Assembly: GCA_001184205.1 (NCBI GenBank)
Contig: LBMP01000003.1
Span: 124,001-188,000 of the forward strand
Reading direction: 5' to 3'
Length of the DNA stretch: 64,000 bases
Source of the DNA: Desulfocarbo indianensis
GTDB taxonomy: Bacteria; Desulfobacterota; Desulfarculia; Desulfarculales; Desulfarculaceae
The translations under genes were made by a program, and so were the position numbers. A model generated the notes under the pieces. It worked only from the letters and a program-made list of their open reading frames with translations, was not told the origin of the DNA and ran no database searches. Below, in pieces: positions 38,471-50,570 of this stretch (positions within the stretch are counted from its first letter, which is position 1; each line of letters opens with the position of its first letter).

Positions 38471-38881
38471 ATGAAGAAGGGTGTTATTGCGATCGCGATC
38501 ATGGTCGCCTTTGCCGTGGCCATGATGATGGGTTCGGGCGCCATTGCCCAGACCACCAAGTCCGGTGACGTCAAGGACGTCATAGAGATCAAGGATCCCC
38601 TTTTCGGCAAGCACACCAAATCGGCCGTGACCTTCTCCCACAAGAAGCACTCGGTCGACTACAAGCTCAAGTGCGATACCTGTCACCACGTGTACAAGGA
38701 CGGCAAGAACGTGTGGAAGGAAGGCGACAAGGTCGAGATGTGCTCCGCCTGTCACAAGTCGCCCAAGAAGAACGAAGGCAAGGTCCTCAGCCTTTACAAC
38801 GCCTTCCACAAGAACTGCAAGGACTGTCACAAGGAAATGAAAAAGGGCCCCACCAAGTGCAACGAGTGTCATCCCAAGTAA
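38471..38881 (+). CDS. Tetraheme cytochrome c3
   Basis: A 136-residue periplasmic class III cytochrome. A signal peptide (residues 1-26, ending GAIAQ) is followed by four heme-binding CxxCH motifs: CDTCH, CSACH, CKDCH and CNECH, with extra His residues (FSHKKHSVD, NAFHKNC) that supply the bis-His ligands. Cytochrome c3 is the main periplasmic electron pool of sulfate reducers and links hydrogenases and formate dehydrogenases to membrane complexes. It has its own strong promoter and terminator, as expected for an abundant protein. Confidence 0.97.
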   Translation: MKKGVIAIAIMVAFAVAMMMGSGAIAQTTKSGDVKDVIEIKDPLFGKHTKSAVTFSHKKHSVDYKLKCDTCHHVYKDGKNVWKEGDKVEMCSACHKSPKKNEGKVLSLYNAFHKNCKDCHKEMKKGPTKCNECHPK

Positions 38882-39112: not shown

Positions 39113-39298
39113 TTAGACCTCGGTCACCGTGATGGCGTCGTTCTCGCAAACCTCGATGCAGCTCTCGCAACCGAGACACTCTTCGGCGTTCACCGGAACC
39201 GCCTTGCCGTCCTGCATCTCATAGACGTCCACCGGGCAGACCTCCACGCATTCCTCGTCGCCCACGCACTTGTCTGCATCAACCGTAACCATGAACAT
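39113..39298 (-). CDS. Ferredoxin with Asp-substituted first cluster
   Basis: A 61-residue soluble ferredoxin. The second site is a normal C-x2-C-x2-C-x3-C (CLGCESCIEVC). The first site reads CVGDEECVEVCP, with Asp in place of the second Cys, the pattern known from Desulfovibrio africanus ferredoxin III and Pyrococcus ferredoxin; such clusters convert between [3Fe-4S] and [4Fe-4S] forms. It has an ideal AAGGAGG ribosome site and its own terminator. It is a likely low-potential electron carrier for the Flx-Hdr complexes of this window. Confidence 0.95.
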   Translation of the reverse strand: MFMVTVDADKCVGDEECVEVCPVDVYEMQDGKAVPVNAEECLGCESCIEVCENDAITVTEV

Positions 39299-39353: not shown

Positions 39354-40994
39354 TCAACCCAAATCTTTCGCCGCCTTGGCTCCCAAGGCGAAATATGTGT
39401 TTGCCTGGCCCACCTCAATGACAGACCACTCACGGCCCATATCGCCCAGCAGACGCACCTTGTCAAGTGTTTCCTGCACATTCATTCGATTTATTGTTTC
39501 CACCGCCACTTGCAGGCACCATTGGGCCCCGGCGCCGTTGCCTCGTTCATGGAGAACTTTTGCCAATATTACATAGGTTTGGGCCCTCGCGGCCGGCTGG
39601 GAAACCTCCCCGGCCAAGCGTACGGCGGTTTCCGCGTCCAGGGCGGCCCAGGCCCTGATCAAGGCCCGCCGGGGCAAGAGGCCGCCCATGCGCGCCGACT
39701 GGCTCAGCGCCTGTTGGTACAGCTCACGGGCCAGGGCCGGTTCAGCGGGCGTGGCGATATCCGCCAACCTGGCCAGGACGCCCAAGCGCACGTAATTATC
39801 GCCTATGGCTTGGGCCTGCTGGGCGGCCCGGCGCACGTTTTTGCCCGCCTGGGCCAGCACCATAGCAGCCTCGGCCTCGCCGCGCAAGAGGTACTGGGAG
39901 GCCGGCACCTGCTCCAGAATGACCCTGGCGGCCTGGGGATCGGACTGGGCCAGATCGGCCGCCAAAAGGCCCAGGGCCCGGTTGCGTTCATAGGTCAGGG
40001 GCACCTCGGCGGCCTCGCGGATGGCCGCGTCCATCACCTGGCGTCCCAGCCTGGGGTCTGAGGCCAACAACGATCTGGCCACTATCCTGAGCGCCTTGAA
40101 ACGCGCGCCCTGGCCGGGCTGCACCCGCCGGGCCAGGTCAAAGCCGGCCCTGGGGTCCAGGTTGGCCAGGGCCGCCGCCACCTCGCCCTGCAAAAGCGCG
40201 GCGCGCTTGGGCGGCGCGGCGTGACCCGCCAGGTCAAAGGCCTTGGCGAACAGCAGAACGCCGTCTTGAGGGTTCCAGGAAAAAGCCAAGCCCGCGGTAT
40301 GGGCCAGGCAAAGGGCTGCCTGCCCCGCGTCCTCCACCCGGCCGGCGGCCTCCACCGCCTTGGTCAAATCCGCGGGTTGCCGGGTGAGCTCGGCCAGGGC
40401 CCGCCAGGCCCGCGCCCGAAGCAGGGCATCGCCGATTTCCCGGGCGATCTCCCTGGCCCGGCCCGCCTGCCTGCGTCCCATCACCTCGACCAGCTCGGCC
40501 AGATCGCGGTCGCGTCCCGCCGGGTCGGGATTGGCCCTGGCCCTTTGCAGGCCCAATTCCAGGGCGCGCGCGGCCAGATCCAAATCCACCACCAAGGCGC
40601 AACGGGCCACCAGGGCCAAAGGCCAGGCCGCCCTGACCAGTTGCTCGGCCCGCCGGGCGTTGGCCAGGTATTCCTCGCTTCCCTTTTCCTGGCCGAGCTT
40701 TTTCATCTGCTCGGCCAGCCGCCTGGCCTGGGGACCTGCCAAACCTTGGGCCACCTCCAGGGCCTGGACCAGGAAACTCCGGGCCATTTCGGGATAGGCG
40801 GGCGCGGCCTTGGAAGCCAGGCCGCACAGGGACGCCACCTGTTGCTGGCGGGAGCGCAGGGAAACCCAAAGGGCATCGGCCCGTTCGCGGCCCATATCCA
40901 GCTTGGTCCGGGGGACGCCGGCGGGCGGAGGTTCGCTTTCGCAGCCCATGAGCAGCGCCAGGCAAAGCATAAGCGGCCAGGCCCAACGGATCAT
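39354..40994 (-). CDS. Lipoprotein with helical repeats, last gene of the cytochrome operon
   Basis: A 546-residue protein with a lipoprotein signal (PLMLCLALLMGCESEPPP, lipid Cys about 18). The rest is alanine-rich and helical, with repeating 35-40-residue units of the TPR/Sel1 kind (ADIATPAEPALARELYQQAL and similar). It is therefore probably a periplasm-facing assembly or interaction partner. It overlaps the monoheme cytochrome gene by 4 bp, tying it to the seven-gene redox operon 39354-45376. No named family is recognised. Confidence 0.75.
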   Translation of the reverse strand: MIRWAWPLMLCLALLMGCESEPPPAGVPRTKLDMGRERADALWVSLRSRQQQVASLCGLASKAAPAYPEMARSFLVQALEVAQGLAGPQARRLAEQMKKLGQEKGSEEYLANARRAEQLVRAAWPLALVARCALVVDLDLAARALELGLQRARANPDPAGRDRDLAELVEVMGRRQAGRAREIAREIGDALLRARAWRALAELTRQPADLTKAVEAAGRVEDAGQAALCLAHTAGLAFSWNPQDGVLLFAKAFDLAGHAAPPKRAALLQGEVAAALANLDPRAGFDLARRVQPGQGARFKALRIVARSLLASDPRLGRQVMDAAIREAAEVPLTYERNRALGLLAADLAQSDPQAARVILEQVPASQYLLRGEAEAAMVLAQAGKNVRRAAQQAQAIGDNYVRLGVLARLADIATPAEPALARELYQQALSQSARMGGLLPRRALIRAWAALDAETAVRLAGEVSQPAARAQTYVILAKVLHERGNGAGAQWCLQVAVETINRMNVQETLDKVRLLGDMGREWSVIEVGQANTYFALGAKAAKDLG

Positions 40995-41632
40995 GACGGT
41001 TCCTCGTGGCCGGCTTCCGGGTCAGGGTCGTCCCGGTGTAGCTGCCCCGGCAGCCGCCCTTCCCTGACCAGGCGCAGGGGCAAGGGCTCGGGCGGCGGAA
41101 CCAGCCTGCGCCGCCAGCCGATGAGCCCCGCCAAAACCAGAGCCAAGCCCACCACCAGGGCCACGCCCAGCAGTTTCAAATGGGTTCTGGCCTGGCTCAG
41201 GTTCCAGAGCGGCCGGCCCACCTCTCGGTTCAGTTCCGCGCGCAAGCCCGCGAACAGGGCGGAGGTCCCGCTGATGGATTCGGCCGGCCGGCGAAGCAGG
41301 GTGTGGTGTTTGTCGCTGAGGCGATGCAGCTCCAAGGCCAGCTCCACGGTGCGGGTACCCCGCGACTCCAGTTCCGCCAGGGCTTCGGACAGAGCCGCCA
41401 GGCGGCTGGCGGTGAGGTATATCTCCTGCCGGATTCTTTTCACCCCTGGGCAGAGGGAAAGCGTCTCCCCTTCCATGGGGCCCACCGCGGCCAGGGAGCC
41501 CAGCGCGGGCTGGCCGCCGCCCGCGTAGCCGCCATGGCAGGCCAGGCAGGCGTCGGGCTCGCTTGCCGGCAGCGGGTTTGCCGACAGCAGCATCGCCGCC
41601 AGGAGGGCGGCGGCCAGGAATTCAGTCTTCAC
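40991..41632 (-). CDS. Membrane-anchored monoheme cytochrome c
   Basis: A 213-residue protein. Translation starts at GTG 41632, which has GGAGG six bases upstream; the open frame reaches further but that part lies inside the preceding gene. A signal peptide (about 1-22) is followed by a single CxxCH (CLACHGGYAGG near residue 30), a mostly helical middle part that keeps several His residues, and a C-terminal membrane anchor (LLGVALVVGLALVLAGLIGW) with a basic tail. It probably takes electrons from the split cytochrome b encoded just upstream. It overlaps its neighbours by 4 bp on both sides. Confidence 0.8.
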   Translation of the reverse strand: MKTEFLAAALLAAMLLSANPLPASEPDACLACHGGYAGGGQPALGSLAAVGPMEGETLSLCPGVKRIRQEIYLTASRLAALSEALAELESRGTRTVELALELHRLSDKHHTLLRRPAESISGTSALFAGLRAELNREVGRPLWNLSQARTHLKLLGVALVVGLALVLAGLIGWRRRLVPPPEPLPLRLVREGRLPGQLHRDDPDPEAGHEEPS

Positions 41633-42030
41633 CAAAGCCTCCAAAAAGCCAGGAACGCTGTCACGAGCAGGCAGGCCAATACCAAGCGCGAATAAACATA
41701 GCGGCCCCAGAAATAGGCTCTCTCGCCCTTGTCCCAAAACGGCAGCGTGAGCAGCCCCGCCCCAAAGACGGCGACAAGGGCTATGGCCAGACCGGCGGGG
41801 AAAAGCCGGGCCAGGCCCGCCGCCGGCCACAAGTACCAGGGAGGATAATATGACGAGGCCAGCAAAGGCTCGTGAGGCGGCCTGTCCAGGGGCATGAACA
41901 GCTCCGGCCCGAAAAAGGCCAGGCCCACCAAAACGATCAAGGCCGCCACCCCGCTCAGCGCGCGGCTGACCAGGGCATGGGGCCACAAGGGCTCCAGGCG
42001 GTTATGCTCCTGGGGGTCGTAAATATGCAT
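41629..42030 (-). CDS. Cytochrome b C-terminal-like subunit (subunit IV-like)
   Basis: A 133-residue membrane protein with about three hydrophobic segments. HEPLLASSYYPPWYLWPA resembles the region before and around the PEWY quinol-site motif of bc-type cytochrome b C-terminal domains (subunit IV of b6f); here the motif reads PPWY. It follows the cytochrome b6-like gene by 7 bp, so the pair corresponds to a split cytochrome b. No Rieske protein gene is nearby. Confidence 0.72.
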   Translation of the reverse strand: MHIYDPQEHNRLEPLWPHALVSRALSGVAALIVLVGLAFFGPELFMPLDRPPHEPLLASSYYPPWYLWPAAGLARLFPAGLAIALVAVFGAGLLTLPFWDKGERAYFWGRYVYSRLVLACLLVTAFLAFWRLW

Positions 42031-42037
42031 GCTTCTC

Positions 42038-42709
42038 CTATAGGGGACCCGCCACGCCGTTGCGGCGGATCATGGCCCAATGCGCCCGCAGAAAAACCAG
42101 CATAAGCGCCGGGGCGGCCAGGTGCAGGGCGAAAAAGCGGCTGAGGGTGGCCTCTCCCACCTCGGCCCCTCCCCGCAGCCAGAGGAGAATATCCCCGCCC
42201 ACCAGGGGCAGGCCCCGCCAGACGCCGGTGAGCTGGCGGGCCAGTTCCACACCCGCCTGATTCCAGGCCAACACCTGTCCTGAGGCGGCCGAGGCCAGGG
42301 CGCAAAAAAGCAGCAACACGCCGCTCAGCCAATGCAGCTCGCGGAAAGCCTTATAGGCGCTGGTCCACAGCACCCGCAGCATGTGCAGCAGCGCGAACAG
42401 CACCAGCAGATTGCCGCCCACCGCGTGCAAACGCCGCAGAGCCCAGCCGCCCGGCGCCTGGTTGTCCAAATACATCAAGCCCTGCCAGGCCCCCTCGGCG
42501 CTGGGCTGATAAAAAACAAGAAGGAGCAGCCCACTGAGCGCCTGCAGGGCGAACATCAGAAAGGCCAGCCCGCCGAAGCATTTGTAAAAGTATTCCTGCC
42601 AGGCGGCGATGGCCGGCACCTCGCGCCGCCAGAGGGGCGGGCGCAGGCCCTCCCTGGCCACCAGCCAGTCCCCCAGGCCGCGCAGCAGTTTTTTAAGCCG
42701 GTCGATCAT
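42038..42709 (-). CDS. Cytochrome b6-like diheme cytochrome b
   Basis: A 223-residue membrane protein with four helices. ATG 42709 is preceded by GGAGACGGG; the frame upstream belongs to the neighbouring gene. The heme ligands are visible as two His in LHAVGGNLLVLFALLHMLRV (helix 2) and two in LHLAAPALMLVFLRAHW (helix 4), as in the N-terminal half of bc1/b6f cytochrome b. It probably carries two b hemes across the membrane and oxidises or reduces menaquinone. It overlaps the diheme cytochrome c gene by 4 bp. Confidence 0.88.
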   Translation of the reverse strand: MIDRLKKLLRGLGDWLVAREGLRPPLWRREVPAIAAWQEYFYKCFGGLAFLMFALQALSGLLLLVFYQPSAEGAWQGLMYLDNQAPGGWALRRLHAVGGNLLVLFALLHMLRVLWTSAYKAFRELHWLSGVLLLFCALASAASGQVLAWNQAGVELARQLTGVWRGLPLVGGDILLWLRGGAEVGEATLSRFFALHLAAPALMLVFLRAHWAMIRRNGVAGPL

Positions 42710-43038
42710 TTCCCGTCTCCAGGCAGTGCCCTGGCTCCCGCATGGGCATGGCACTGGTCGCACCAATTGGCGGTGTGGCAGAACAGGCACTCGCCAAGCT
42801 CGAAGCCGGCCAGGGGCGCTTGACCATCGCGGGCCACCATGGCTCCATGCCGCGCCCGCCATTGGCTTAGGGGCGCATGATAGGCCGGCGGCTCCAACCC
42901 TATGGCGTCGTGCCGCAGGCCTCTTACCGCTTCCGGCGAATTGGCGGCGTCTCCCCGCCCCGAACCGTCGCAGGCAAAGGCCCAGGCCAGCGCGCAGATC
43001 GTCAGAACCAGGGCCGCGGGTTTCAACCGGCCTCGCAT
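42706..43038 (-). CDS. Small diheme cytochrome c
   Basis: A 110-residue exported protein with an N-terminal signal (VLTICALAWAFACDGSG, possibly lipidated at Cys23) and two closely spaced heme motifs near the C-terminus: CLFCH and CDQCH, separated by only four residues. The preceding part has His residues that could act as distal ligands. It overlaps the DsrK-like gene by 16 bp and the cytochrome b gene by 4 bp. The short two-heme module recalls the small cytochromes of Dsr/Tmc-type complexes, though no family is certain. Confidence 0.8.
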   Translation of the reverse strand: MRGRLKPAALVLTICALAWAFACDGSGRGDAANSPEAVRGLRHDAIGLEPPAYHAPLSQWRARHGAMVARDGQAPLAGFELGECLFCHTANWCDQCHAHAGARALPGDGK

Positions 43039-44501
43039 GCTTCTTCCGCCTTGTTGCCCAGCGCGGCGGGGTACAGGGCGTTGCCCAGAAGCTCCGCCAC
43101 GCTGCCCACGCTCATGCCCAGTCCGAAATGCCGCACTCCCCGGGTCAGGGCGTCCCGGCAGCCGTCGCAGGCGGTGGCCACCCAGTTGCAGGCGTGCGCC
43201 CGGCGCACGTGGTCCAGGGCCTGGGCCCTGGGCAAAAACCCCGCCAGGGCCAACTCCGGATTGGCCAGGCTCAGCCCGCCCCCGCCGCCGCAGCACAGGG
43301 TGTTGAGGCCCACGGTGTGGGCCGGCATCTCCCGCCAAATACAAACCGCGTTCAAAAGCTGGCGCGGCTGACTTATCATTCCGCAAGAACGGGCGACTTG
43401 GCAAGGATCATGGTAGGTCACCACCCGGCCGGTGTTGGCCTCGGGGCGGAAACGCCCCTGGAACGCCCCGCGCTGGTAAAGATGGTGGGCCCATTCGATG
43501 ATATTGAGCGGAGCCTTGCGCTCCAGATAATCCTCGCCGGACCAGGACGGTTTCAGGCTGGCGGCGAAACGGGCGGCCACCCGCCAACCCATGCCGCTCT
43601 CCCCCCACACCACCATCTTGGGCCTCAGCTCCCTGGCCGCCTCCAGCAGGCGGAAGTGGGCCAGGCGCATATTGCGGTAGTTCAGCCAGGCGCCGGGATT
43701 GGCGGCGTCGCTGACATAGGTGCTCACGGTCCATTTGATCCCCGCCGCGTAAAAAAGCTTGGCGTAGGCCTTGTAGGTGGCGCGGTGCCGCACCATGTCC
43801 CCCGCCGGCGGCAGAAAGAGCACGTCGGCCCCGTATTCATCCACCGGGCAGGGTATGGGCTGGCCGGTCTCGCGCTCCAGTTCCTGCTCCAGCCGCAAGT
43901 GGCGCTGCACCCAGGAGGCGTGCATGACGCCTTCCCGGTTGCCGGTGCGGTAGACCTCGGCGGCTCCGCCCGAGCCGGCCTGGCCGCAAAGCCCGATCTC
44001 GGCCATGATCTCGCGGCAGGCAAAGGTGATCTCCGAGGTGTCCAACCCCAGGGGGCAATACAGGGCGCACCGGCGGCAAAGGCTGCACTGGTGGAAATAA
44101 ACCCACCATTTCTGGATAAGGGACCAGGGTAATTCCGCGGCCGGACGGCGCGGCCCGCCGGGGGCCAGAAAACGCCGGTAAACCTCGCGGGCCAGGCCGG
44201 CCCGGGCGGCGGGCATGTTCAGGGGATCGGCGGTGCCCTGGTAATAGGGGCAGGCCGCGGCGCAGGCCCCGCAGCGCACGCAGGATTCCAGATGGTGGCG
44301 GAACCCGCGATAGCGCTCCAGCGCCCGCCTGAAGGTCGCCAACAGGGTTTCCTGCCAATCGGGCAGCAAAGAAGCTGGCAGGCCGCACAGGCGCTGGTCC
44401 GCTTCCCGGCCTTGCATCGCGGCCATTTCATAAGCCGCCCCCGGCGCTGGCCGGGGCGAGGCCTCGGGCCGGGGCCGCAATGCCTTTAACAAACCCCTCA
44501 C
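43023..44501 (-). CDS. DsrK/HmcF/TmcB-like iron-sulfur protein (HdrD family)
   Basis: A 492-residue cytoplasmic subunit. Two [4Fe-4S] ferredoxin sites come first (CVRCGACAAACPYYQG near residue 75; CSLCRRCALYCPLG near residue 140). The second CCG domain is complete (HDPCQVARSCG, TLCCGGGGGL, CDGCRDAL), as needed for the noncubane disulfide-reducing cluster of HdrB/D and DsrK. The usual ECGH of the first half is replaced by GESGMGWR, so one Cys is lost. In known complexes such a subunit reacts with a thiol/disulfide partner (DsrC for DsrK). It overlaps the NarI-like gene by 4 bp. Confidence 0.92.
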   Translation of the reverse strand: MRGLLKALRPRPEASPRPAPGAAYEMAAMQGREADQRLCGLPASLLPDWQETLLATFRRALERYRGFRHHLESCVRCGACAAACPYYQGTADPLNMPAARAGLAREVYRRFLAPGGPRRPAAELPWSLIQKWWVYFHQCSLCRRCALYCPLGLDTSEITFACREIMAEIGLCGQAGSGGAAEVYRTGNREGVMHASWVQRHLRLEQELERETGQPIPCPVDEYGADVLFLPPAGDMVRHRATYKAYAKLFYAAGIKWTVSTYVSDAANPGAWLNYRNMRLAHFRLLEAARELRPKMVVWGESGMGWRVAARFAASLKPSWSGEDYLERKAPLNIIEWAHHLYQRGAFQGRFRPEANTGRVVTYHDPCQVARSCGMISQPRQLLNAVCIWREMPAHTVGLNTLCCGGGGGLSLANPELALAGFLPRAQALDHVRRAHACNWVATACDGCRDALTRGVRHFGLGMSVGSVAELLGNALYPAALGNKAEEACEAG

Positions 44502-45376
44502 GGCCGCTCCCTGTCGGCCAGGCGCTGGCCGGCGCTAAGCACCTGGCTGGTGCCGTGAGCCGCCCAATGATCCTTCAAGCGGCGATGATAGTCTTCCAGG
44601 GTAAGGGGCGGCGGCTCGCCGGGCAGCACTGCTTCCCGGCTGGGCGCGTCGCCCAGATAATGCGCTTCCCAGGGGTTTTCATGGGGCTCCAGGCGCGAGG
44701 CCGGCCTTTCCCAGATTAGGGGGTTGTAGAACAGCTCGGGGCCGTGCATGAGCTTGGAGAAAGGAAACGCCGCCAGGAAAACCAGGGCCAGCGCCAGATG
44801 CAGGCAGACCAGCGCGCCGGGCCAGGGACCAATCGGCCTCCAGGGCATCGCCAGGCCCAGGGCCAGGGCCTTGATCGCCCTGGGATCGGGCGGCGACCAA
44901 TGGGCCAGGGCCAGCCCGCTCAGGGCCAGGGCCATCAGAAGCGCCGGGAACGCGTAATCCACCGCCCGGGAAAGGTGCCACAGGCGCGGATCGGCCAGAC
45001 GGCGCATCAGGAGAATGACGAGCCCCGCCACCAGAAAATAGCCCGCGGCCCGGCTCAGGGGAGTGAGGAAATAGAGCCAGGGGGGAACCGTGCTAAAAAA
45101 GAAGCGTAGATGCCCCAGAAGGGCCAGGAACAAGCCCAAATGCAGAGCCATGGCCCCCAGGGCCAGGAGCGGCGAGCGCCGCCACAGGGAGGCCAGGAGA
45201 GCCGCCAGCGCGCCGTGGCGCCCGGCGCCGCCGGCCGGGCCGGGAAAGCCCAGCCCCACCCGCAGGGGAACCGGGGTCCGCGCCAAGCCCCGCAGGCGGT
45301 AGGCCAGACCCAAAGCGAAAATGATCAGCGCGGCATAAGGCAACAGGCGGAAGGCGGCTATGTACAGAACCCCCAT
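44498..45376 (-). CDS. NarI/DsrM-like cytochrome b membrane subunit
   Basis: A 292-residue protein with about five membrane helices and a cytoplasmic tail (about 220-292). His residues in ALHLGLFLALLGHLRFF, DPRLWHLSRAVDY and CLHLALALVFL, and the family marker FPFSKLMHGPELFYNP, place it with NarI, DsrM, HmcE and TmcC, which carry two b hemes and exchange electrons with menaquinone. It is the first gene of the seven-gene redox operon and directly precedes its usual partner, the DsrK-like protein. Confidence 0.9.
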   Translation of the reverse strand: MGVLYIAAFRLLPYAALIIFALGLAYRLRGLARTPVPLRVGLGFPGPAGGAGRHGALAALLASLWRRSPLLALGAMALHLGLFLALLGHLRFFFSTVPPWLYFLTPLSRAAGYFLVAGLVILLMRRLADPRLWHLSRAVDYAFPALLMALALSGLALAHWSPPDPRAIKALALGLAMPWRPIGPWPGALVCLHLALALVFLAAFPFSKLMHGPELFYNPLIWERPASRLEPHENPWEAHYLGDAPSREAVLPGEPPPLTLEDYHRRLKDHWAAHGTSQVLSAGQRLADRERP

Positions 45377-45501: not shown

Positions 45502-46149
45502 TTAAGCGCTCATGCCCAGCTTGGCCAGCAGCTCCTCGTGCACGGGATAGCCGTTTTTGACAGCCAATTCGGCATGTTGTCTGGCCTGGTCGGCCTGGTT
45601 GCATTCCCAGTAGGCCACGGCCAGGTTATTGTGGGCGATCGCGAAATCATCCCTGATTTCCAGGGCCTTGAGGCTTGCCTCTATCGATTCTTGCAAACGG
45701 TCGGTTTGCAGGAGAAGCGATCCCAGATTGGCCCAGGCGTCGGGCATCTCCTGCCCCTCGCTCAAAGCCAGGCGGAGCTGTTTCTCGGCTTCCTCCAGGT
45801 GGCCCAATTGCATATAGGCCACCGCCAGGTTGGCGCGCACCATGGGATGATCATGCACGCTGAGCGCGGTGGTGAACGCCCGCAGGGCTTCGTCGCCCTG
45901 GCCGAGCGAAAGATGGATGCCGCCCAGATTAAGCAGGCTTTCCAAATGCTTGGGAGCTTGGGCCAACACCTGCCTGAAGGCCTGCACCGCCTCGTCCACG
46001 CGGCCGGCGTGCATCAGGGCCACGCCCAGGTTATAGCGCATGTGCCAGGCGTCGGGCTGGGCTTCCAGGTATTGGCTGAGGCGGTCGACCAGGCCCTCCC
46101 GGAGAAGATCGTCTTCCGGGATGCCGCTTGGTGTATCTATCTTGCTCAT
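45502..46149 (-). CDS. TPR-repeat protein at the dsr locus
   Basis: A 215-residue soluble protein built of five or six TPR units (residues about 35-205; for example WHMRYNLGVALMHAGRVDEA and MVRANLAVAYMQLGHLEEAE). No signal peptide or membrane segment. It is the last gene behind dsrD. Its ATG and ribosome-binding region lie in the first of two 75-bp tandem copies (46136-46305), so its expression signal has been duplicated. Likely a protein-interaction adaptor; no specific function is known to me. Confidence 0.85.
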   Translation of the reverse strand: MSKIDTPSGIPEDDLLREGLVDRLSQYLEAQPDAWHMRYNLGVALMHAGRVDEAVQAFRQVLAQAPKHLESLLNLGGIHLSLGQGDEALRAFTTALSVHDHPMVRANLAVAYMQLGHLEEAEKQLRLALSEGQEMPDAWANLGSLLLQTDRLQESIEASLKALEIRDDFAIAHNNLAVAYWECNQADQARQHAELAVKNGYPVHEELLAKLGMSA

Positions 46150-46305
46150 AACTACGAGGCCTTTGGCGTCTGGACTGAATCACGCCCCCTTGACGCAAAG
46201 GCCCCGCCACCCTCTAGATAGCTTTTTGTCTCTATCTTGCTCATATCACGAGGCCTTTGGCGTTTCGACCTAATCACGCCCCCTTGACACAAAGGCCCCG
46301 CCGCC
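46136..46305. repeat. 75-bp tandem duplication spanning a start codon
   Basis: Copies at 46136-46210 and 46231-46305, over 85% identical by eye. Each contains the first codons of the TPR gene (minus strand ATGAGCAAGATAGA), GAGGCCTTTGGCGT and the segment CACGCCCCCTTGAC. Only the left copy is connected to the full gene. Confidence 0.9.
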
Positions 46306-46385
46306 TTCTTGATGGAGCGGACCTTGGGCTTGGTCCTGGGCGGGGGGCCTGGCGGAGAATGCGCGCCGGCAAAGGGCTCCGCTTA

Positions 46386-46625
46386 TTATTCCTCGCCTTC
46401 GGCGTGCTTGCCGCCGGGCAGCGCGAAGTAAGTGGTGGAACCACTGGACCAATAGGCAATGGTTTTTTCCATTATCATCTCGGAGGTGGCCTTCTTGAGG
46501 ACCTTCTTGTCCACGCTCTCGTCGATCTTCTGGATCTCCTTGAGCAGGTCCTTCATCATCATGCGCTTTTGCTTTTTTTCGAGCACCTGGAGGGTGAGTT
46601 CTTTTGCTCTATCTAAATCGCCCAT
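46386..46625 (-). CDS. dsrD: Dissimilatory sulfite reductase accessory protein DsrD
   Basis: A 79-residue winged-helix protein found only with dsrAB of sulfate/sulfite reducers; it stimulates sulfite reduction by DsrAB. The hallmark YWSSGSTTYFALPG is present near the C-terminus. AAGGAGG precedes the ATG. In most genomes dsrD follows dsrB directly; here the dsrN-type gene lies between them. Presence of dsrD supports a reductive, not oxidative, Dsr pathway. Confidence 0.97.
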   Translation of the reverse strand: MGDLDRAKELTLQVLEKKQKRMMMKDLLKEIQKIDESVDKKVLKKATSEMIMEKTIAYWSSGSTTYFALPGGKHAEGEE

Positions 46626-46697
46626 TCGAATAACCTCCTTGATTTGAAGATATTTTCACAATACAGCAACATATCGCCACCGGCCTTCTGTGTCAAG

Positions 46698-48086
46698 CTA
46701 CTTTATACCCGGACGGGCGGCCTTCAGCATGCCCGGAGCCCATTGCGAGGCCCCCAGGCAGTGCACATGGTGATACGTTCCCAATACTTGATGCATTAAA
46801 AGCCCACCCCACGAACCCAGGATTCCCTTGCCCCGCTGCACCTGGTAGGCGAACGAGGGCTGGAAACCCGGCTCCAGAGCGGGCTGGGAATAGTGGAATT
46901 CGTGCGCTTTGAACTCATATCCCATGGGTAAAAACGGGTTACGGCCCACCACCTTGCAGAAGGTGTAGCCATGGCCCTGCGGTTTTTTCTGCATGGCGAA
47001 ATCAACCGGGAAAATCCCGGCCATGGGGTGTTTTTCACCATCTGCGATGATGCTCTGGCCCAGGTACATCAGGCCGCCGCATTCGGCGTAGATGGGCAAG
47101 CCCTCCTTGGCGGCTTTTTGCACCTCCCGGCGAAAATCAACATTGCCGGCCAGGCGGGCCGCGTGGGTTTCGGGAAATCCTCCTCCCAGGTAGAGGGCGT
47201 CCAAGGCCGGCAGGCCGGCATCCTCCAGCGCCGAACAATACACCAGCTTGGCCCCGTGGTTGGCCAGGGCTTCCAGGTTTTCCGGGTAGTAGAAACCAAA
47301 GGCCGCGTCGCGCACCACCCCTATTACCGGTGCTTTTGCCGATGGCGTTTCCGAGGGAAACAATCCCTCGGGCGGGCGGCTTTCCCGCCAGTCCGGCGCG
47401 GAGCCCATCAGGTCCCACAAGGCGTCCACGTCCACGTGGGCGGCCACGCTGCGCGCGGCCAGGTGCAGGGCCTCGGCCACCGCCTGGTGCTCCTGGGGGG
47501 GCACCAGACCCATGTGGCGCTCGGGCAGGTTGAGGGACAGGCGCGGGACCGCTCCCAACACCGGGAGTCCCGTGTAGTCCTTGATGGCCTGGCGGATGAC
47601 CTTTTCCTGGCGGGCGTTGGCCACGGGGTTCAGCACCACGCCGGCCAGATTAAGCTCCGGGTCGAAATCCCGGCAGCCCAGGACCACCGCCGCCACGCTG
47701 CGCGAGGTCATGGAGCAATCCACGGCCACCACCACCGGGGCTTGCAGCCATTTGGCCAGTTCGGCCGTGGAATAGCTGCCCGCCGCGTCCATGCCGTCGA
47801 AAAGGCCCCGGTTGCCCTCCACCACCGCGGCGGCATAAGCCCGGCTGTGGTAGCCGAAGGAACGGATCACCTGCTCGCGGCCCATGAGATAGGGGTCCAG
47901 GTTGTGGCAGGCCGCGCCCGCGGCCTCGGCGTGCCAAAAGGGGTCGATGTAATCGGGCCCCTTTTTAAAGGGCGCCACCGATATCCCCCGGTCGCTGAGG
48001 GCTTGGATCAGCCCCAGGCTGAGGGTGGTCTTGCCCGAGCCGCCCCGCAAGGCGGCCATCACCAGTCTAGGCAGGACCCGGTTCAT
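46698..48086 (-). CDS. dsrN: DsrN/CbiA-type amidase (siroheme amidation)
   Basis: A 462-residue protein of the cobyrinate a,c-diamide synthase family: P-loop RGGSGKTTLSLGLI at the N-terminus and a class I glutamine amidotransferase domain with the nucleophile in IYAECGGLMYLGQ. In dsr operons the homologue DsrN amidates siroheme to siroamide, the DsrAB cofactor; the position between dsrB and dsrD supports that role over cobalamin synthesis. A strong hairpin (48115-48150) separates it from dsrB. The ribosome site is weak. Confidence 0.9.
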   Translation of the reverse strand: MNRVLPRLVMAALRGGSGKTTLSLGLIQALSDRGISVAPFKKGPDYIDPFWHAEAAGAACHNLDPYLMGREQVIRSFGYHSRAYAAAVVEGNRGLFDGMDAAGSYSTAELAKWLQAPVVVAVDCSMTSRSVAAVVLGCRDFDPELNLAGVVLNPVANARQEKVIRQAIKDYTGLPVLGAVPRLSLNLPERHMGLVPPQEHQAVAEALHLAARSVAAHVDVDALWDLMGSAPDWRESRPPEGLFPSETPSAKAPVIGVVRDAAFGFYYPENLEALANHGAKLVYCSALEDAGLPALDALYLGGGFPETHAARLAGNVDFRREVQKAAKEGLPIYAECGGLMYLGQSIIADGEKHPMAGIFPVDFAMQKKPQGHGYTFCKVVGRNPFLPMGYEFKAHEFHYSQPALEPGFQPSFAYQVQRGKGILGSWGGLLMHQVLGTYHHVHCLGASQWAPGMLKAARPGIK

Positions 48087-48114
48087 GGCGCTTTATCCGC
48101 TCCAGAAGCAAAGA

Positions 48115-48150
48115 CGCTACCCGGGACTTGATGATAAGTCCCGGGTAGCG
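48115..48150 (-). other. Strong hairpin between dsrB and dsrN
   Basis: A perfect 15-bp stem (CGCTACCCGGGACTT with its complement) and a 6-nt loop, 33 bp behind the dsrB stop. On the minus strand it is followed by TCTTTGCTT, not a full T run, so it may act as a partial terminator or protect the dsrAB message from 3' decay. Confidence 0.8.
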
Positions 48151-48182
48151 GCGTATTCAGATACTAACGACCCAGAGCAGTT

Positions 48183-49271
48183 CTACTTGGTGAACTTGAA
48201 CTGGGTGCTGTTCCGCCAGGTGGTCATGGCCAGGCGGTAGTCGTCGATGTGGTGGTGGCTGAATTCGATGCCGGTCTTCTCGAAGAAGCGCTCCCAGCCG
48301 ATGCGCTCGGCCCACTCGCCGATACGCTCGTACTTGTTGGCGTCCTTGGCATAGACCTCAACGATGTTCCGGATGGCCTTCACGGTGGAGGGCCAACGCG
48401 GGGGCTCGTTGGGGATGAAGGGAATAGCCAACTTGGAGAACTTGGGCATGGACCGGGTGTTGGAAACCTTGCCGCCCACCCACAGCGCGATACCGTCGCC
48501 GTCGGCGTCGGCCAGCGGCATGGCGGGGCACATGGTGTAGCAGTTGCCGCAGAACATGCAGCGGTCGGCGTTCACCGCCACGCTCTTGAAGTCATCCACC
48601 TTGGACGGCTTGATGGCCGCGGTGGGGCAAGCAGCGATGGTGGTGGGGATTTCGCACATCTTGTCCAAGTGGGAGTGCTCGATGACCGGGGGTTTGCGGT
48701 GCACGCCCAGGATGGAGATGTCCGAGCAGTGCACGGCGCCGCACATGTTCAGGCAGCAGGCCAGGGAGATGCGCACCTGGGCCGGCAGCTTGTGGGAGCC
48801 GAAGTACTCGAACAGATCGTCCATCACCGACTTCACGATGCCGGAGGCGTCGATGGCCGGAGTGTGGCAGTGCACCCAGCCCTGGGTGTGCACGATGTTG
48901 GTGACGCCGGCGCCGGTGCCGCCGATGGGCAGCACGCCGGTGTCGCTCAGAGCCTTCTTCAGGGGCTCGACCTTGGACTGGTCATCCACCATGAACTCGA
49001 TGTTGTTGCGGGTGGTGAAACGGAAGAAGCCACCGCAATGCTCATCGGCGATCTTGCAGATCCTCTCCAGGTGGACGAGGGTCATCAAGCGGGTGCCGCC
49101 ACAGCGAACCGTGAAGACCTTGGCGCCGCTCTCGGAGACGTGGACCATGACGCCCGGCTCCAAGAGGTCATGATGGGCCCATTTGCCGTAGTTGTCCTTG
49201 ATGATCTGGGGCCACATTTCATCATACTTGGGCGGCCCAATATCGGTGATACGTTCAGCCATATCAGCCAT
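48183..49271 (-). CDS. dsrB: Dissimilatory sulfite reductase subunit beta
   Basis: A 362-residue subunit. The siroheme/[4Fe-4S] ligand region ([13 protein letters not shown]) and the ferredoxin domain ([15 protein letters not shown]) are intact, and [14 protein letters not shown] is the usual DsrB segment. The a2b2 enzyme reduces sulfite, passing sulfur to DsrC. GGAGG lies 9 bp before ATG 49271; an ATG three codons later is an alternative. It follows dsrA by 27 bp. Confidence 0.98.
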
Positions 49272-49298
49272 GTATTATATCCTCCTTATAAGATCGCC

Positions 49299-50570
49299 CT
49301 AGCGAGCGTGACGCTTGCGGTAGTCCTCGATCTGGCGCTCGAAGCCGCCCGGCACCTCGTCTTCTTTGTAGAAGATGTAGGGGTTGGAACGAGGCTCCTT
49401 GATCATCTGCGGAATGGGATCCAGCTCGCAGGCCTTGATGAAGGCGGACAGGCCCAGGCGCTGGATCAACTCACCGATGCGCTCACGGTTCTTGCCGTTC
49501 TCATCCCACCAATCCCACATCTTCTCGACGAACTCCTTGAACTCGTCGTAAGGCTCTTCCATCTTGATGAAGGGGATGATCACCGAACCCATCTGGGCGC
49601 CCTCGAGAATGGGGGCCTTGGCGCCGATGAGGATGGTGGCGCCGGTGTCGGTGCCGGGGCGCAGAGCCTGGGGCATCATGTTGATGCAGTGCATGCAGCG
49701 GGTGCACTCAGCGTCGTTGATCTTGAGGGTCTTGCCGTCAAAGGCCATGCACTGGGTGGGGCACAGGTCGCAGACGTCCTTTTGGATGTCCAGCTTGGTC
49801 CCCTGGCCGTGGGCGCCGCCGTTGGCCGACAGCTCGCCGCCGGCATAGGCCGCCACCGCCTTCTGGTCGATGCGGATGTTGTCGCGCCAGGTGCCGATGA
49901 TGGAGCAGTCGGAGCGGGCGATGGAAGCCACGCAGTCATTAGGACAGCCGGAAACCTTGAACTTGAACTTGTAGGGCCAGGCCGGACGGTGCAGTTCGTC
50001 CTGGAACTCCTGAGTCAGGTTGTAGCAGATATCCTGGGTGTCGATGCAGCCCCACTCGCAACGGGCCTTGCCCACGCAGCAGGAGGGGGTGCGCAGAGCC
50101 GATCCGGAGCCGCCCAAGTCCCAGCCCTTGCGGGTGAGCTCGGCGAAGATGGGCTCCAGTTGCTCGGTGAAGGCGCCCAACAGGATGATGTCGCCGGTGG
50201 AGCCGTGCATGTTCAGCATGCCGCTGCCCCGGCGGTCCCAAATGTCCATGATCTCGCGCAGGCGCTCGGTCTTGTAGAATTTGGACGCGGGCTGGTTGAC
50301 GCGCAGGGTGTGGAAGTGCTCCACGCCGGGGAACTTATCGGGCACGTCGGAATAACGGCCGATAACGCCGCCGCCGTAGCCCAGCACGCCCACGATGCCG
50401 CCGTGCTTCCAATGGCCCTCCTTGTCATTGTAGGAGAGCTCGAGCTGGCCCAAAAGGTCTGCGCAAGCGTCTTTACCGGCTTCGGCCTGGGCCTTGATGT
50501 CGGTAACGAAGCTCGGCCAAGGCCCCTTTTCCAGCTCATCCAGCATCGGAGTTTGATGCTTTATAGCCAT
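49299..50570 (-). CDS. dsrA: Dissimilatory sulfite reductase subunit alpha
   Basis: A 423-residue subunit. Siroheme/[4Fe-4S] motifs appear in TPSCCVGKARCEWGCIDTQ and VSGCPNDCVASIARSD, followed by the inserted ferredoxin domain (CDLCPTQC, CTRCMHC). The SGMLNMHGSTGDI region near the active site is conserved. It is the first gene of dsrA-dsrB-dsrN-dsrD, read from the consensus promoter at 50810-50838 through a leader of about 230 nt. GGAGG lies 9 bp before the ATG. Confidence 0.98.
   Translation of the reverse strand: MAIKHQTPMLDELEKGPWPSFVTDIKAQAEAGKDACADLLGQLELSYNDKEGHWKHGGIVGVLGYGGGVIGRYSDVPDKFPGVEHFHTLRVNQPASKFYKTERLREIMDIWDRRGSGMLNMHGSTGDIILLGAFTEQLEPIFAELTRKGWDLGGSGSALRTPSCCVGKARCEWGCIDTQDICYNLTQEFQDELHRPAWPYKFKFKVSGCPNDCVASIARSDCSIIGTWRDNIRIDQKAVAAYAGGELSANGGAHGQGTKLDIQKDVCDLCPTQCMAFDGKTLKINDAECTRCMHCINMMPQALRPGTDTGATILIGAKAPILEGAQMGSVIIPFIKMEEPYDEFKEFVEKMWDWWDENGKNRERIGELIQRLGLSAFIKACELDPIPQMIKEPRSNPYIFYKEDEVPGGFERQIEDYRKRHAR

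Follow-up and report, generated by a model that had tools for sequence, protein, structure and literature searches.

The block of seven genes that lies within the dsr cluster of Desulfocarbo indianensis is real and conserved, and its predicted products mark it as a variant of the DsrMK type, being neither a Rieske-cytochrome b complex nor DsrMKJOP proper. Our best explanation, which we consider to have an even chance of being right, is that the seven genes specify a second, alternative quinone-linked thiol/disulfide membrane complex of the DsrMKJ type in which the DsrOP half is exchangeable. Its genes and their order, their conservation, the cofactor residues, the recurrence of the core and, in Chloroflexota, its position next to dsrC are direct observations; we infer its assembly, its substrate and the direction of electron flow. 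DsrMKJOP is the presumed electron donor for sulfite reduction, and it is the standard answer to the still debated question of how menaquinol is coupled to DsrC reduction in sulfate reducers. The variants described here suggest that the electron supply to sulfite reduction is more modular than known so far.

Locus and gene order

The window is the whole stretch of 64,000 nucleotides that was analyzed. The block occupies positions 39354-45376 of its minus strand, and all seven open reading frames are present as described in the initial annotation. The order of the cluster is dsrA-dsrB-cobB-dsrD-TPR-(seven genes)-ferredoxin, with the following features.

46386..50570, minus strand: dsrA, dsrB, cobB (dsrN) and dsrD, the dsr cluster around the block; dsrA model above cut-off
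45502..46149, minus strand: TPR protein, upstream edge of the block; found in all 12 family genomes searched
45376-44498, minus strand: M', 292 aa; DsrM/NarI-like membrane cytochrome b; PF02665 E 7.9e-10
44501-43023, minus strand: K', GTG start, 492 aa; 4-bp overlap with M'; DsrK-like Fe-S protein
43038-42706, minus strand: J', 110 aa; 16-bp overlap with K'; two CxxCH; apparently DsrJ-like in motif
42709-42038, minus strand: D (b6-like), 223 aa; 4-bp overlap with J'; PF00033 E 1.7e-37
42030-41629, minus strand: E (subunit-IV-like), 133 aa; 7-bp gap after b6; TIGR01156 E 1e-5
41632-40991, minus strand: F, GTG start, 213 aa; 4-bp overlap with IV; one CxxCH; monoheme cytochrome c
40994-39354, minus strand: G, 546 aa; 4-bp overlap with F; TPR-like repeat lipoprotein
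39113..39298, minus strand: small 2x[4Fe-4S] ferredoxin downstream of the block; 90-95% identity and same place in relatives

The junctions within the block are four 4-bp overlaps, one 16-bp overlap and one 7-bp gap, just as first reported. The absence of a Rieske gene from the operon is likewise borne out; the genome has one Rieske gene beside another b6 and one elsewhere, neither in the block operon. A separate Rieske and b6 pair about 300 kb off (L027, G000:C222:474812-475689) is similar to the family's remaining b6 genes. The seven-gene operon also contains neither DsrO nor DsrP, both of which are found at the canonical locus L026 of the same genome, and no large multiheme cytochrome. Because L026 holds a complete DsrMKJOP, the block is additional in this genome and the basic role does not depend on it, which counts against our best explanation.

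Two further features of the surroundings are recorded here. Just 5' of the TPR gene, the window contains two 66-nt direct repeats (46154-46313), 88% identical and 94 nt apart, and the second copy also duplicates the beginning of that gene. On the plus strand, at 38471-38881, there is a gene for a TmcA-like tetraheme cytochrome c3 (98 of 114 bits), which adjoins the ferredoxin gene in relatives whether the block is present or not.

The DsrMK-like module

The proposal that M' is a NarI/DsrM-like cytochrome b holds: its best match is the DsrM model, although at 94.9 bits it stays below the cut-off of 300, whereas the genome's own canonical DsrM reaches 520 bits. In the alignment, His79, His89, His193 and His211 are common to M', the own DsrM and three orthologues, and M' likely has two b hemes and a quinone site.

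K' had been called DsrK/HmcF-like, of which only the first half stands. It scores 335 bits against the DsrK model (cut-off 400; own canonical DsrK 725 bits), but 104 bits against HmcF and 126 bits against TmcB, whose cut-offs are 750 and 735; by these scores, K' is nearest to DsrK and not to HmcF. Neither M' nor K' thus reaches the cut-off of its curated model, DsrM or DsrK, which is a point against our explanation. K' has the family domains Fer4_8 and CCG, with two 4Fe-4S motifs and one CCG motif, and shares twelve Cys with canonical DsrK. In addition, C448 completes a CxxC motif, the canonical DsrK sequence being CxxD there, and the ligands of the first CCG cluster are missing in comparison with the EtfD/HdrD type. 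In fold, the model of K' (pLDDT 86) is similar to HdrB, with a Z of about 19, and to EtfD, with a Z of 23.6. EtfD is also the best PDB sequence match of the K' profile, while a PDB sequence search with the K' sequence alone gave no match. The proximity to DsrK, combined with an HdrB/EtfD-like fold, speaks for a DsrMKJ-type complex.

The rank of EtfD in both comparisons also favors a different reading, in which M'K' is EtfD/EMO-like and passes electrons from a cytoplasmic donor (ETF or ferredoxin) to menaquinone or periplasmic cytochromes, DsrC being no partner in the window's family. We consider this rather unlikely. Although a ferredoxin gene lies 3' of the block, it is also there where the block is missing; the sequence scores side with DsrK, no etf genes were seen in the neighborhoods read, and the block sits in the dsr cluster.

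The cytochromes and the lipoprotein

J', F and G match no Pfam family above the cut-off. The description of J' as a diheme cytochrome c agrees with its two CxxCH motifs and can be refined, as the protein looks DsrJ-like in its motifs. Compared by eye, its C-terminal pattern is that of DsrJ (H...W..xH, CxxCH, CxxCH, Y.G), but J' has neither the third heme motif nor the N-terminal Cys of DsrJ; its N terminus is lipoprotein-like or an anchor. The match to the DsrJ profile (E 0.037) is not significant alone.

A split bc-type cytochrome b had also been proposed, and the evidence is strong for the b6 part and weak for the subunit IV part. D has four His (95, 109, 196, 210) in two helices, and when it is aligned with 1q90 chain B, its Cys44 takes the place of the Cys that carries heme ci in b6f. 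The four His and the Cys are kept in both genera, which is a point for our explanation, and D can convincingly be called a relative of cytochrome b6. E, with three predicted helices, matches TIGR01156 below the cut-off (E 1e-5) and Pfam with E 0.62, and may, on this weak indication, be a relative of subunit IV. The PEWY motif is replaced in E, by PPWY in the window and by PAWY in G013. Since other bc complexes show systematic variants of PEWY (PMC9162462), its loss alone is a weak argument. Nevertheless, the missing Rieske protein and the replaced Glu together make a classical Q cycle in the block unlikely.

As originally described, F is an anchored monoheme cytochrome c, with its membrane anchor at the C terminus, and G is a repeat lipoprotein, with an all-helical, TPR-like model (pLDDT 86) and a lipoprotein-type N terminus.

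Relatives within the family

Comparison of gene neighborhoods, as the initial annotation had suggested, shows that the operon is conserved. G013, a genome of another genus, joins both cytochrome b modules: it has all seven genes in the same order, with identities of 46% for K', 47% for b6, 35% for IV and 40% for G, and J' is split by a frame shift. No Rieske protein was found anywhere in this genome, which is 99% complete. G011, of a third genus, has five of the seven genes in the same order, b6 and IV being the ones missing. The second cytochrome b, taken at first as a part of the block, is therefore kept in G013 but better regarded as an optional module. In G002, the block is truncated within K' by a contig end. 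In G016, contigs end at the TPR gene and at the gene for G, which fits a block situated between the two.

In six relatives (G001, G003, G004, G007, G008 and G019), the block is absent as a unit. The ferredoxin gene then directly follows the TPR gene, only about 200-290 bp away. The block is thus there or missing as one unit between these two genes, and wherever a genome of the family carries it, it sits inside the dsr cluster; both observations count in favor of our best explanation. As a separate observation, a bc-type cytochrome b of 469 aa is found between sdhB-like and sdhA/frdA-like genes at L014 (G003:C1:2422625-2426185) and L023; the stretch read there contains no Rieske gene.

The G011 operon might also be taken to mean that the block comprises two co-transcribed units with only the operon in common: a complex of M'K'J'FG, and b6/IV acting on its own as a quinone:cytochrome oxidoreductase. 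The presence of other modules at the same slot in distant lineages (see below) points in the same direction. This is nonetheless improbable: b6/IV lies between J' and F inside the core operon in two genera, with 4-bp overlaps, and G013 has no Rieske partner at all for a separate bc complex.

The patchy presence and the frame shift in J' of G013, along with the long branches of K' in the tree and the loss of Cys302 described below, would fit a decaying or non-functional duplicate of DsrMKJOP. We consider such decay very improbable. Every frame in the window is open and the overlaps are intact, the different genera retain the Cys of the clusters, the His of the b hemes and the c-heme motifs, and an error of assembly may account for the frame shift.

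The core in distant lineages

In the search of the phylum, K' relatives from one further family, the Desulfobacterota MAG family f24, scored 504-521 bits, compared with at most 394 for canonical DsrK. They occur in six of eight f24 genomes, and one further copy is cut by a contig end (G254). On long contigs, the f24 operon reads fumarase alpha, beta, M', K', J', Rieske, cytochrome b/IV-c fusion, SdhA, SdhC, SdhB, F-G fusion; that is, the cytochrome b has b and IV fused together with a cytochrome c domain. The core here adjoins fumarase and succinate dehydrogenase genes rather than dsr genes, which counts against our explanation and in favor of the EtfD/EMO-like reading.

A scan of named genomes with the f24 K' was the source of the Chloroflexota loci, while the same scan with the window's own b6 gave no match. 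The core is found in dsrAB-bearing Chloroflexota (L093-L095, L097, L098, L125). In the best-read loci, L094 and L098, the order is dsrA, dsrB, dsrC, M', K', J', Rieske, molybdopterin oxidoreductase, FeS, NrfD, fused F-G, where the molybdopterin oxidoreductase is of the QrcB/PhsA type (QrcB model 320 bits, cut-off 440). The core follows dsrC (PF04358 E 1.5e-38) directly, and no canonical DsrM was seen in four Chloroflexota genomes, which are draft assemblies of unstated completeness. These two facts together are the strongest functional hint for our best explanation, although an indirect one; without the M'K'J' core, the dsrAB-bearing Chloroflexota in which canonical DsrM was not seen would seem devoid of a DsrC reductase. 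Also seen were two contigs of Verrucomicrobia/Opitutaceae MAGs (L096, L099) with dsrAB, DsrMK and ferredoxin, the other subunits missing; their DsrA is only about 33% identical to that of the window.

M', K', a two-heme J', F and G occur together in the window, G013, G011, f24 and Chloroflexota operons. F and G of the window's family match those of the distant lineages as profiles (probabilities 99.1 and 98.7), and in f24 and Chloroflexota the two are fused into one protein. Given these matches and the differing modules, the slot between J' and F is exchangeable within a core that is otherwise constant. The recurrence of the core, including the F-G fusion, also supports our explanation.

The trees are less decisive. 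Canonical DsrK forms a fully supported clade with the window's K' outside, and canonical together with oxidative-type DsrK separates, with support of 95/89, from the K' of the window, Verrucomicrobia, f24 and Chloroflexota. A joint clade of window, f24 and Chloroflexota K' is not rejected (p 0.40), and grouping of the window K' with canonical DsrK is borderline (p 0.063). The K' tree gives no proof of a single origin of the hybrids, a point against our explanation, nor does the b6 tree resolve whether the b6 of the window and the cytochrome b of f24 share an ancestor.

Cys, Sec and Ser at one position

Canonical and Chloroflexota K sequences have the motif GECG wherever it was read. The four K' proteins of the window's family all have Ser (Ser302) in place of the Cys of canonical DsrK, and in f24 K' from at least six genomes of three genera its codon is an in-frame TGA:

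L077-L082 and L092 (f24), e.g. L079:8085-8087: in-frame TGA at GE[C]GH of DsrK-like proteins

The f24 frame runs 170 residues past the TGA, with a C-terminal part that is 86-91% identical. Seven of the eight f24 genomes have a tRNA-Sec above the gathering score, G117 having only 46.9 bits. The f24 K' is apparently a selenocysteine form of a DsrK-like protein. Note that the fold of the 42 bases 3' of the TGA was no better than that of shuffles, so that we claim no SECIS element.

Ser302 aligns with Cys581 of EtfD, two residues ahead of His583, which ligates the noncubane cluster of EtfD (PMC13083937). From this alignment, the Ser302 site probably adjoins a noncubane-type cluster in K', and the series of Cys, Sec and Ser at one DsrK position hints at a chemically important residue near it. 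The Ser in all four family proteins takes away the DsrK thiol, which argues against our best explanation. This Ser, the location of the f24 core among sdh and fumarase genes and the similarity of the K' fold to EtfD are the strongest warnings, and they keep the EtfD-like alternative alive.

Proposed mechanism and significance

In a DsrMKJ-type complex of this kind, M', K', J' and the F/G pair would form the fixed core. K' would provide an Fe-S chain in the cytoplasm that terminates at a noncubane-type cluster, J' a periplasmic two-heme cytochrome, and F/G an anchored cytochrome and a TPR-like scaffold. The Rieske-less b6/IV pair would stand in for the DsrO/DsrP part, which other modules would replace in other lineages. 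Menaquinol would be oxidized at M', and electrons would pass via K' to a cytoplasmic disulfide or trisulfide, probably of the DsrC type, while b6/IV would mediate electron exchange of the J' and F c hemes with the menaquinone pool. It is plausible that the seven products form one physical complex. By analogy with the proposal for DsrMKJOP, where quinone cycles between DsrMK and DsrJOP with two sites, in DsrM and DsrP (PMC8076601), the two quinone sites may form a charge loop.

The same proposal bears on the novelty of a layout with two cytochromes b. The conserved operon stands, but two quinone sites are not new, and the novelty is which quinone module is used. No earlier description of the operon was found in the open-access literature; one may exist in subscription papers or preprints. 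The same literature yielded no paper on DsrK with selenocysteine or on DsrK with a noncubane cluster and DsrC, and only incidental mentions of DsrMK with Rieske.

We are equally inclined to accept and to doubt a broader conclusion, namely that there is a hitherto undescribed, cross-phylum DsrMKJ-based family that combines a fixed M'K'J'FG core with a quinone module of variable type (b6/IV; Rieske-cytochrome b/c plus succinate dehydrogenase; or Rieske plus Qrc-like molybdopterin/NrfD), which would serve as DsrC reductase in Chloroflexota without canonical DsrM and would carry a selenocysteine DsrK thiol in one Desulfobacterota lineage. Variants in which the second quinone module is swapped show which parts are core and make the quinone loop testable by comparison.

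Comparison with known systems

Hmc and Tmc resemble the block in that a NarI-type cytochrome b is paired with an Fe-S protein of the HmcF/TmcB type, but they have a large multiheme cytochrome that the block lacks; an Hmc/Tmc origin is ruled out because K' scores 104-126 bits where the cut-offs are 735-750. The likeness to Qrc is confined to the Chloroflexota core, where a QrcB-like molybdopterin subunit, FeS and NrfD come after J'; the window's operon has no Qrc part. EtfD/EMO and HdrDE share with the block a NarI-type cytochrome b and an HdrD-type CCG protein, K' being similar in fold to EtfD and HdrB; however, M' and K' are two genes rather than one, and the block has extra c cytochromes and b6/IV.

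What the block has in common with bc1/b6f complexes is a b6-like protein that carries four His and a Cys of the ci type and, as in b6f, is separate from an IV-like protein; the block has no recognizable cytochrome f or c1. The missing Rieske protein and PEWY rule out a bc or b6f complex.

DsrMKJOP itself is also ruled out, since several of its defining features fail (the DsrM/DsrK cut-offs, a triheme DsrJ, DsrO/DsrP). The block differs from it in having a two-heme J' without the N-terminal Cys, in the addition of b6/IV, F and G, and in a K' that has Ser302 and lies outside the canonical DsrK clade. Nevertheless, DsrMKJOP is matched by DsrM-, DsrK- and DsrJ-like subunits in the same order within the dsr cluster, by likely two quinone modules, and by the four b-heme His of M' and the twelve shared Fe-S Cys of K'.
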